From contig JAFYWN010000010.1 in assembly GCA_017558005.1 (NCBI GenBank), forward strand, positions 1-44,431: 44,431 bases of DNA. The letters are read 5' to 3'. The position numbers and the translations under genes were made by a program. The notes below the pieces were generated by a model, which ran no database searches, was not told where the DNA came from, and was given only the letters and a program-made list of their open reading frames with translations. Every line of letters begins with the position of its first letter. Position 1 is the first letter of the stretch. Below, piece after piece: positions 23,771 to 26,326 of this stretch. The stretch is from Kiritimatiellia bacterium (GTDB lineage: Bacteria > Verrucomicrobiota > Kiritimatiellia > RFP12 > DVOR01).

Positions 23771-26326
23771 ATGAAACGTATGGCAGAAAAGATAAAAACA
23801 GACATCATTGTGGTTGGCGCCGGACATGCTGGATGTGAAGCGTCATTTGCGGCAGCAAGAATGGGGTGTGATGTCATGTTGATAACTTCCCAACGGGATA
23901 CACTGGGACTGATGCCGTGCAACCCTGCCGTTGGAGGATTGGCGAAATCTCACTTGGTAGCAGAACTCGATGCACTTGGCGGTGAAATGGGATTTAATGC
24001 CGATCTCACCGGGTTGCAATATCGTATGCTTAATGCATCGCGTGGACCAGCTGTAAGAGCGGTGCGTGTTCAGTGTGATAAGGCAAAATACACGGCGCGA
24101 ATGGCCCGTATTGCAGAAGAATTGCCAAAATTAACCCTTATTGAAGGAACCGTGATTAATCTTCTTCCTGCTCAAGAATCTCCACAAACTGCAGCGTTAA
24201 TAACTGAGACTGCTGATGGGGTTCAGTTAGAAGGAGACGAGGATTCAACCGAAAATGAAGCCTTAACAGGCGTTCAATTAGACGATGGACGTGTCTTCTA
24301 CTGTAAGCGTGTGGTATTAACCTCGGGGACTGCATTGGGCGGAAAGATTTGGGTTGGACACGTGGGTAAAGATGGTGGCGGTGATGCACGCCCTGCAATT
24401 GAGCTTCCAGAAGTACTTAAAAAGATTTCACCGCAGATAGGTTGGAGACGATTAAAAACAGGCACACCGCCTCGTATTCTCAATACTTCAGTGGATTGGC
24501 ACTTGGTGCAACGCCAAGAGGGTGAGAAAGACCCCGTTCCCTTCTTCTCTCGCCGTATGCGCTTGCTTCAAGAAGGATTAAAAACAATTCCAGAAGGCGA
24601 ACTTTATACGGAAGATGTTCCACGTGGAACAGTACAACTTCCTGAAGAATCCACGAGCCCAATAGTGTGCGATGGTGAAAATGTTCCACGTGGAACACAG
24701 AAGTGTCTTGACACGTTAACTAATCAGAATTTTTCTTTCCAAAAGAGTGTTCCATGTGGAACACCGATTAAACCAGAAGTAGACTCAGTCAAATCTTCTT
24801 GCGAAGAGGTAGATGTTCCACGTGGAACACAAGTTGTGCGAGGGGTTGCTTTCGGTGAAAAGGGTGAAGTGTTACCACCTAATCCTCTATGGATTATAAA
24901 AGATGGATTTGCTACGTATCGCGCCGTGGAGGGTTTTGAAGCGGGCTTTGATCAGTATAAATCGTCAAAAGAAAATATCTTACCGAGTGGCATGGGAGAT
25001 CGCTCACAAAGTATTTCAGGTAAGAAGATTGTCTTATTGAATTCTAATCGAACCGCTTCTCTTGGTGGGGAAGAGGGGAGTAAAAATTCAAATCTTGACA
25101 TTGAAAAGAAATCAAACGATTCGTCTGTGATTCATTTTGAACTGTCGGATGAGATGATTGCGGCTTACCAACGCGCCACAACAGCACAGTTGCCGTGTTA
25201 TCTTTCGCATACGACCTTGGAAACGCATGATATCATTCGTAATAATCTCTCTGAATCAGCACTTTATGGTGGAGATATCAGCGGCGAGGGAGTACGTTAT
25301 TGCCCAAGTATTGAGGATAAAATTGTTAAGTTTGGTGACCGTGGTGGACATCATGTGATTTTGGAACCCGAGGGAAAGGATTGCCCTTGGTGCTACCCTA
25401 ACGGTCTCTCAAACTCGCTTCCTGCATCGGTCCAACTCGAAATGACGCGTTCGGTGCCAGGTCTTTCTCGTGCAGAGTTTGCAGCGCCTGCCTATGCCAT
25501 TGAGTATGATTGCATTGATCCGCGTGCTTTGGATGGACGTTTGGCGTTAAAGAATCGTCCAGAGATTTACTTTGCTGGGCAGATTAATGGCACGACGGGT
25601 TATGAGGAAGCCGCTGCACAGGGTTTCTATGCTGGTGTAAATGCTGCACTTTCTGTGCAGGGAAAACCCTCGCTCTTGCTTTCCAGGGATGAGGCGTATA
25701 TCGGCGTAATGGTGGATGATTTGATTACGAAGGGAACAGATGAACCTTATCGTATGTTCACTTCGCGCGCTGAAAGACGATTATTGTTGCGCCCGGGAGA
25801 TGCGCATTTGCGTTTGCATACGTATGCGGTAAAGTTGGGTTTGGTCTCGGAGGAGTTATTAAATCTCTCTGCGGCGGAATTGGATTGGCTGCGTGAAACT
25901 GAGGCTCAATGGCGCACAGAGTGGTTGGATGGCAACGGCTTGAATCGTTGGAAGCTTCTTTCTCGCGAGGGGGAAACGTTTGAGAGCGCCGCGACTTTCG
26001 GCGGGGCTGATGCAACGTGTTACGCACACATCCCTGCCGACTGGAAGGAGGAGTTTATCCTTCGTGCAAAGTATGAAGGGTACATTGCTCATGAAGCGCT
26101 CCAGGCTGAACGGCTTCGTCGCGATGAGGCACTCTTAATTCCGCCAACTTTTGACTATGCTTCTGTAAAAGGGTTACGCTATGAGGCCTGTGAAAAGCTC
26201 TTACGCCAACGCCCAGATTCGTTGCGCCGCGCCGCGAGTATTCCTGGTGTAAATCCTGCAGATTTAGCACTGCTTGCCCTTGCCCTGCGCAAATTAAAAT
26301 ACGCGCCCGCTTATTCAAAGGCATAA
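23771..26326 (+). CDS. mnmG: tRNA uridine-5-carboxymethylaminomethyl enzyme MnmG, with large insertion
   Basis: MnmG, with MnmE, modifies U34 of certain tRNAs. The FAD-binding motif VVGAGHAGCEASFAAARMG (about 15-33), the CNPAVGG and RLKTGTPPR segments, YCPSIEDK, AGQINGTTGYEEAAAQG and the C-terminal KYEGYI region are all kept, so the enzyme should be active. It has 851 residues against about 620-630 normally. About 200 extra residues lie between PVPFFSRRM (ends 263) and QLPCYLSHT (starts 473), where E. coli has about 15. A smaller insertion occurs near 130-160. The large insertion is low-complexity, and its DNA carries four parS-like sites. AAGGAAGTGAG precedes the ATG. Confidence 0.95.
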   Translation: MKRMAEKIKTDIIVVGAGHAGCEASFAAARMGCDVMLITSQRDTLGLMPCNPAVGGLAKSHLVAELDALGGEMGFNADLTGLQYRMLNASRGPAVRAVRVQCDKAKYTARMARIAEELPKLTLIEGTVINLLPAQESPQTAALITETADGVQLEGDEDSTENEALTGVQLDDGRVFYCKRVVLTSGTALGGKIWVGHVGKDGGGDARPAIELPEVLKKISPQIGWRRLKTGTPPRILNTSVDWHLVQRQEGEKDPVPFFSRRMRLLQEGLKTIPEGELYTEDVPRGTVQLPEESTSPIVCDGENVPRGTQKCLDTLTNQNFSFQKSVPCGTPIKPEVDSVKSSCEEVDVPRGTQVVRGVAFGEKGEVLPPNPLWIIKDGFATYRAVEGFEAGFDQYKSSKENILPSGMGDRSQSISGKKIVLLNSNRTASLGGEEGSKNSNLDIEKKSNDSSVIHFELSDEMIAAYQRATTAQLPCYLSHTTLETHDIIRNNLSESALYGGDISGEGVRYCPSIEDKIVKFGDRGGHHVILEPEGKDCPWCYPNGLSNSLPASVQLEMTRSVPGLSRAEFAAPAYAIEYDCIDPRALDGRLALKNRPEIYFAGQINGTTGYEEAAAQGFYAGVNAALSVQGKPSLLLSRDEAYIGVMVDDLITKGTDEPYRMFTSRAERRLLLRPGDAHLRLHTYAVKLGLVSEELLNLSAAELDWLRETEAQWRTEWLDGNGLNRWKLLSREGETFESAATFGGADATCYAHIPADWKEEFILRAKYEGYIAHEALQAERLRRDEALLIPPTFDYASVKGLRYEACEKLLRQRPDSLRRAASIPGVNPADLALLALALRKLKYAPAYSKA
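24616..24631. promoter_or_regulatory. parS-like site 1
   Basis: TGTTCCACGTGGAACA, a perfect 16-bp palindrome inside mnmG. It is the GTTCCAC/GTGGAAC variant of the ParB-binding centromere site (consensus TGTTTCACGTGAAACA), known from pseudomonads. It encodes VPRGT in frame. Confidence 0.85.
24682..24697. promoter_or_regulatory. parS-like site 2
   Basis: The same perfect palindrome TGTTCCACGTGGAACA, exactly 66 bp after site 1 and in the same reading frame (VPRGT). Confidence 0.85.
24748..24763. promoter_or_regulatory. parS-like site 3 (one mismatch)
   Basis: TGTTCCATGTGGAACA, exactly 66 bp after site 2, with one central change (ACGT to ATGT). It encodes VPCGT. It is likely a weaker site. Confidence 0.75.
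24814..24829. promoter_or_regulatory. parS-like site 4
   Basis: TGTTCCACGTGGAACA, exactly 66 bp after site 3, again encoding VPRGT. Confidence 0.85.

Follow-up and report, generated by a model that had tools for sequence, protein, structure and literature searches.

A likely chromosomal centromere inside the tRNA-modification gene mnmG of a Kiritimatiellia bacterium and its relatives

Why does the gene of a tRNA-modifying enzyme carry, within its coding sequence, four evenly spaced copies of a palindrome that resembles the bacterial centromere site parS? The question is raised by mnmG of a Kiritimatiellia bacterium (assembly GCA_017558005.1, 2.05 Mb in 37 contigs, 90% complete), which was analyzed in a contig stretch of 44,431 nt (JAFYWN010000010.1, positions 1 to 44,431; hereafter, the window). 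The gene (23771..26326, plus strand, 851 aa) contains parS-like palindromes, to which no strand is assigned, at 24616..24631, 24682..24697, 24748..24763 and 24814..24829. The first, second and fourth are exact copies of TGTTCCACGTGGAACA, and the third differs from it by one change, TGTTCCATGTGGAACA. Successive sites are spaced at exactly 66 bp, and each is translated in a common reading frame as VP[RC]GT (VPRGT at the first site, VPCGT at the third); in these respects the first-pass annotation, made from the window sequence, is borne out. All four sites fall within 214 bp and are the only matches to TGTTCCACGTGGAACA at up to two mismatches in the whole assembly, so that the palindrome is not scattered over the genome, a possibility that the annotation had left for a genome-wide scan. 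The number of matches expected by chance at up to three mismatches is 0.13 per window, and four matches were reached in none of 100 dinucleotide shuffles; apart from the three exact copies, the window also contains no perfect 16-bp palindrome. The annotation further held that the spacers between sites show no likeness. This is correct for two pairs, with identities in register of 26% and 32%, and marginal for the third, at 40%, where shuffled spacers average 26% and reach 36% at the 95% level, as computed for one pair.

The sequence TGTTCCACGTGGAACA is identical to parS2 and parS3 of Pseudomonas aeruginosa, as described in PMC4368675, and a table in PMC7022226 lists it as parS for P. putida. 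The window holds three perfect matches to a known parS sequence and a fourth that departs from it at one base, and, as in other chromosomal parS systems, the copies are few, clustered and close to an origin of replication, which in this case is itself predicted. We conclude that the four palindromes in mnmG are likely to be the parS centromere of this chromosome, with a probability of about 0.85. A related candidate was considered and rejected: the Noc binding site (NBS) is a related palindrome that is read by a related DNA-binding protein family, and, according to PMC7383237, it differs from parS in having adenine 1 and cytosine 6, whereas the window sites carry the parS bases at both positions.

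The host gene is a genuine mnmG by its profile match. The open reading frame (ORF) scores 617.7 bits against TIGR00136, above the equivalog cut-off of 524.85, has the GIDA and SAM_GIDA_C domains, and retains many of the columns that are invariant in an alignment of 39 sequences; its predicted activity is the modification of the tRNA wobble uridine. Compared to typical MnmG/GidA proteins, it has about 200 extra residues between the GTPPR and LPCY blocks. The best solved MnmG structures align to about residue 259 and resume at about residue 472, leaving approximately residues 260-471 unmatched, in agreement with the added segment of about 200 residues that had been noticed at first. In an AlphaFold model based on 39 sequences, the core folds well, and residues 263-455 (24557..25135, plus strand) have a predicted local distance difference test score (pLDDT) below 50 and are predicted to be disordered. 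The four sites correspond approximately to residues 282-353 and, therefore, lie inside this added, predicted disordered segment. A second, smaller predicted disordered segment (24179-24256, residues 137-162) contains no palindromes.

The association of the palindrome with mnmG extends far beyond this genome. The exact TGTTCCACGTGGAACA was found in 12 of the 17 genomes of the genus, in 147 of 193 genomes of the class (99 of the 118 good genomes, and 81 of the 97 genera) and in 150 of 288 genomes of the phylum, usually with one to three copies per genome in class and phylum. The control pattern, read backwards, was found in one of the 193 class genomes and two of the 288 phylum genomes. To locate the copies, we used 108 genomes, the present one included, with 188 exact sites; this set is a non-random sample, because it consists of loci that were listed or chosen to spread over families, from about 224 genomes with exact sites (a hand count), and the 188 were established as the full set of exact copies in these genomes by summing tables by hand. 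Duplicate loci (L002-L004, L016-L020, L214, L223) and L021, in which the mnmG stretch is identical to that of L013, were excluded before counting. Most copies (163/188) lie in mnmG between the GTPPR and RYCPSIE blocks. Another eight are elsewhere in the mnmG open frame, taken from stop to stop, so that some possibly precede the start codon; 11 are outside the frame within 600 bases; and the remaining six (five in G134, one in G203) are in loci where mnmG was not detected. At least one exact copy within the stretch between the two blocks is present in 103 of the 108 genomes and in 33 of 34 families, and the first copy is most often located 32-33 or 45-46 codons past GTPPR (65/103 genomes). As a side observation, the five exact palindromes of G134 (L212) are in repetitive DNA beside a beta-mannosidase-like ORF, identified by eye; a search of this genome for mnmG gave no match, and relocation of the centromere is possible.

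A count that does not depend on the site gives the same picture within the genus: mnmG was really found in 13 of 17 genomes, and 12 of these 13 have an exact site in the stretch between the blocks. The thirteenth, G012, has only a one-change site, approximately 200 bp before the ORF; G001, G002 and G006 gave no match to mnmG, and G003 gave only a weak partial match. In a wider MnmG search of 54 genomes, 11 had no match and could not be judged. Among Bacillota (mostly Clostridia) that served as a control, none of 79 mnmG genes contained parS at up to one mismatch, and 29 of the 79 loci had such a site outside mnmG. The first-pass annotation had identified mnmG as the host of the sites in one genome; the host extends to the class and much of the phylum, and the scale of the phenomenon had been underestimated.

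Strong ParB and a palindrome in the mnmG stretch are associated across genomes. Our panel for this comparison comprised 80 hand-chosen genomes, 40 with exact sites and 40 meant to be without them, yet two of the latter (G203 and G218) have one; a strong ParB match was defined by an E-value below 1e-20, and a palindrome was counted when it occurred in the mnmG stretch in exact form, with up to two changes, or in the form GTTTCCACGTGGAAAC described below. A strong ParB match was found in 62 genomes, 56 of which have the palindrome, compared to one of the 18 genomes without a strong match (Fisher 1.6e-11, uncorrected for kinship). In 15 of these 18 genomes (families f49, f55, f57, f58, f61, f62 and f64), the interval between GTPPR and YCPS is 76-81 residues long and contains no site. 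The panel genomes of these families, which have either no ParB hits or weak ones, include a single-contig genome, G256. Two 0.9-Mb genomes of family f56 without a ParB match (G224, L266; G238, L268) have an interval of 90 residues with FHVKQ or FHVRQ and, at most, a remnant with four mismatches; this decayed palindrome may be a fossil centromere. Together, the identity to a characterized Pseudomonas parS and the association with ParB uphold the parS-like nature claimed for the sites at the outset.

A further line of evidence comes from genus g2, which belongs to the same order. The palindrome TGTTCCACGTGGAACA is absent from this genus, and its mnmG carries GTTTCCACGTGGAAAC instead, in six copies in G088 and two in G197 (mnmG at L319 and L317; parB at L323 and L322); all copies are translated as VSTWK, and the outer guanine is one base further out than in TGTTCCACGTGGAACA. 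The DNA-binding domain of the g2 ParBs differs at three positions: LTQ is changed to LTY, one residue is inserted in the GK-x-R motif just before the arginine, and R is replaced by G in LRLL. All three positions are invariant in the 41 other ParBs that were aligned, which cover part of the panel. The Caulobacter ParB-parS structure described in PMC7383237 has Q162 and G170-R173 in contact with parS, with a bond between R173 and guanine 1. We matched these residue numbers to the ParB motifs ourselves, and the arginine of LRLL is not named as a contact in that text. From this one event, it may be that the displaced arginine of the g2 ParBs reads the displaced guanine.

It should be noted that several observations weigh against the reading of the mnmG palindromes as a centromere, or against its generality. 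The joint difference of palindrome and ParB is one event, seen in two genomes of one genus. One genome, G250, has a one-mismatch site and no ParB hit, and six of the 62 genomes with strong ParB lack the palindrome in the mnmG stretch (G172, G284, G323, G234, G203 and G218). In genus g102 of family f51, exact sites occur in 19 of 22 genomes (a hand count), and this genus is nearly absent from the 108 genomes, in which G203 alone represents it; the exact site is located before an argS-like ORF in G203 and further down in mnmG in G218. Because g102 is under-sampled and the two genomes seen have their sites elsewhere, the proportion of 103/108 overstates the rule in this genus. Exact sites are lacking in 46 genomes of the class, and mnmG was looked at in few of these. 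When two mismatches are allowed, a match inside mnmG is seen in three of the 79 Bacillota loci (L023, L031 and L034). No binding, chromatin immunoprecipitation (ChIP) or chromosome-conformation (Hi-C) data were found for these organisms. Finally, ParB (TIGR00180, PF02195) was not found in the 90%-complete assembly of the present genome. Matches to PF02195 are present in 15 of the 17 genomes of the genus, 14 of them at an E-value of 2.2e-27 or better; the match in G001 is to a 123-aa open frame (2.9e-15), with a second weak hit. In all 14 genus loci that show parB (L101-L114), the gene adjoins argC and not mnmG. The argC gene was not found in the present assembly either, and, although an empty search alone shows nothing, a single missing block in an assembly of this completeness would explain the absence of both genes. 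The gap is, therefore, probably a hole in the assembly rather than a loss of ParB.

Among the other explanations, the one that fares best, while still improbable, is that some other regulator, such as a repressor of mnmG, uses the palindrome as its operator, or that the palindrome is a target of restriction/modification. A 16-bp palindrome within one gene could, indeed, serve as an operator. Operators are normally found at promoters, whereas these sites are in the middle of the gene; moreover, the sequence equals a characterized parS, tracks the presence of ParB across the panel, and differs jointly with the DNA-reading loop of ParB in g2.

It is slightly less probable still that the sites are parS but that the exact 66-bp period is itself functional, through the geometry of ParB loading or bridging, an idea close to the suggestion of the first-pass annotation that the period sets the geometry of loading or spreading. 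The three equal periods in this genome are in its favor. The relatives are not: at the same place, one sister species has five exact copies spaced by 45, 45, 51 and 48 bp, and another has six copies, of which four carry one change, at intervals of 45, 66, 45, 63 and 45 bp. Across genomes, 60 spacings between exact sites range from 27 to 213 bp, with 48 bp in 13 cases, and the only value of 66 bp is that of the present genome, the 66 bp of the sister involving a one-change copy. Given that sister arrays are spaced otherwise, the regular 66-bp period is peculiar to this genome, and a conserved functional geometry is rejected. The proposal to align mnmG of relatives thus had a divided outcome: the segment with its palindromes recurs, and the spacing is not kept.

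Under a third explanation, selection acts on a functional peptide motif of MnmG (FHVEQ, VPRGT or CSTWN), and the palindrome only follows from the codons that encode it. Three observations agree with it: the reading FHVE predominates among the 163 copies in the stretch (112 copies, in frame 1), the first copy has a preferred position after GTPPR, and the two 0.9-Mb genomes without ParB retain FHVKQ or FHVRQ without the palindrome. The remaining copies are, however, read as CSTWN (29, frame 0) and VPRGT (22, frame 2), so that identical DNA is translated in each of the three frames, with more than one frame in use in 13 genomes; the mixed frames already contradict the peptide explanation. The use of all three frames indicates that DNA, not peptide, is conserved. 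The codons are also fixed beyond the needs of the peptide: in the three array-bearing sister genomes, 14 of 15 VP[RC]GT motifs have identical codons for V, P, G and T, a spelling of VPRGT that has a chance of 0.0003 under the codon usage of the window. In one motif each of two genomes, R is changed to C, which alters the protein at the cost of one base of the palindrome. Furthermore, the segment is predicted to be disordered, and neither palindrome nor motif is present in the 15 genomes without strong ParB that have the short interval. With the FHVKQ and FHVRQ remnants as the one point in favor, selection at the peptide level is rejected, the explanation is very improbable, and the initial proposal of selection on DNA rather than protein holds. 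Equally improbable is a role of the copies at the mRNA level, where hairpins with the stem UGUUCC/GGAACA would pause translation or determine the stability of the transcript. Any perfect palindrome should be able to fold back, but a hairpin would tolerate compensated changes, and the 16 bases are found unaltered in 81 of 97 class genera. In addition, the window contains no match above the cut-off of any Rfam family, and the ParB difference would be left unexplained.

Returning to the reading of the array as a centromere, ParB would load as a clamp on the palindromes in mnmG and slide into the neighboring DNA, where it would enable ParA and the SMC condensin to move and fold the origin region after it has been copied; binding, loading and segregation at this array are what the sequence comparison leads us to expect. 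As the palindromes are inside the coding part of mnmG, one gene is likely to be both the blueprint of an enzyme and a handle of the chromosome. The length of the mnmG stretch correlates with the number of copies (Spearman 0.58 with n=106, and 0.79 by family with n=34; both uncorrected for kinship). We infer that MnmG can accommodate additional residues in its variable loop and that selection for more ParB loading sites would have lengthened the protein there. On a larger scale, it is likely that, across much of the phylum, the centromere is seated in mnmG, such that selection for ParB sites writes part of the protein, a disordered loop grows to as many as some 200-300 residues as in-frame parS sites multiply, and the copies are rewritten jointly with the ParB loop when specificity shifts.

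The surroundings of the array are those of a predicted origin region. The dnaA gene (21508..22965, minus strand; Bac_DnaA, Bac_DnaA_C) is 0.8 kb upstream of mnmG and 1.7 kb from the array, and dnaN is at 16923..18041 (minus strand). The DnaA-box-like sequence TTATCAACA, which we take to be one base off the classic DnaA box, occurs 19 times in the window compared to 0.36 expected, and 17 of these copies, with no strand assigned, form three clusters around dnaN and dnaA: four between dnaA and mnmG (23098..23217), 1.4 kb from the array; six between dnaN and dnaA (18496..18851), a candidate part of oriC; and seven (14585..14819) at the minimum of the cumulative GC skew (14.5 kb), 10 kb from the array, a candidate oriC. 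Canonical DnaA boxes (TTWTNCACA) show no excess in the window, with 5 compared to 4.7 expected. The three clusters probably form an oriC of several parts that uses a variant DnaA box, and the closeness of the array to dnaA and a candidate oriC, which the annotation had pointed out, is confirmed by these distances. Half-sites of parS (GTTCCAC) flank mnmG on both sides (22924, 23490, 23705, 28557 and 28622); there are 17 in the window, 10 of them outside the array, compared to approximately 4.7 expected for the whole window. Long stretches with few ORFs are found beside mnmG (26327-28800) and between dnaN and dnaA (approximately 18041-21500), and ORFs of 239 and 174 aa in the latter interval have no Pfam match. 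Further on, 28805-32980 contains fatty-acid synthesis genes, including those for a FabV-like trans-2-enoyl-CoA reductase and a FabA-like dehydratase.

A parS site that also encodes protein near the origin is familiar from Bacillus subtilis, where one such site is in spo0J, the parB gene itself, which is not known to hold an array or to encode an enlarged protein; here, mnmG holds an array. In Pseudomonas, parS sites are spread over several genes. The sites parS1-4 of P. aeruginosa resemble the present ones in their identical 16-bp sequence (exact for parS2 and parS3), in being four sites near oriC and in being mostly coding (PMC4368675). They differ in that all the sites of a genome here usually cluster in mnmG, at a location within the gene that many families share, and in that the host protein here has an added, predicted disordered segment around them. 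The same paper, PMC4368675, places nine of ten P. aeruginosa parS sites within predicted coding sequences, and therefore parS within a gene is not new. A parS search in 12 gut genomes, including Akkermansia, does not state the host gene in the available part of PMC10197239. Among the matches listed in our literature search, no paper reports parS within mnmG/gidA or deals with the parS sites of Lentisphaeria; the main survey of parS, that of Livny et al. (2007), may already list such sites. Within the same matches, we found no paper on the retention of parS in mnmG across much of a phylum, on arrays in an added segment, or on mnmG copies that differ jointly with ParB.

A parS site is usually taken as a free-standing DNA signal that falls in or between genes by chance. 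In this group, the centromere appears to be bound to one gene across a large part of the phylum, such that chromosome segregation visibly shapes a protein sequence. For annotation, the long MnmG loops of these bacteria are likely to be driven by DNA and not to represent new protein domains, and the palindrome can serve as a simple marker of the origin region in uncultured genomes. The natural arrays of one to six sites with many different spacings form a comparative system for the effects of site number and spacing on ParB loading, with the genomes that lack strong ParB and the palindrome as a comparison set, and genus g2 would add a natural difference in ParB specificity, in which palindrome and protein are both changed, beyond the pair of ParB and Noc.

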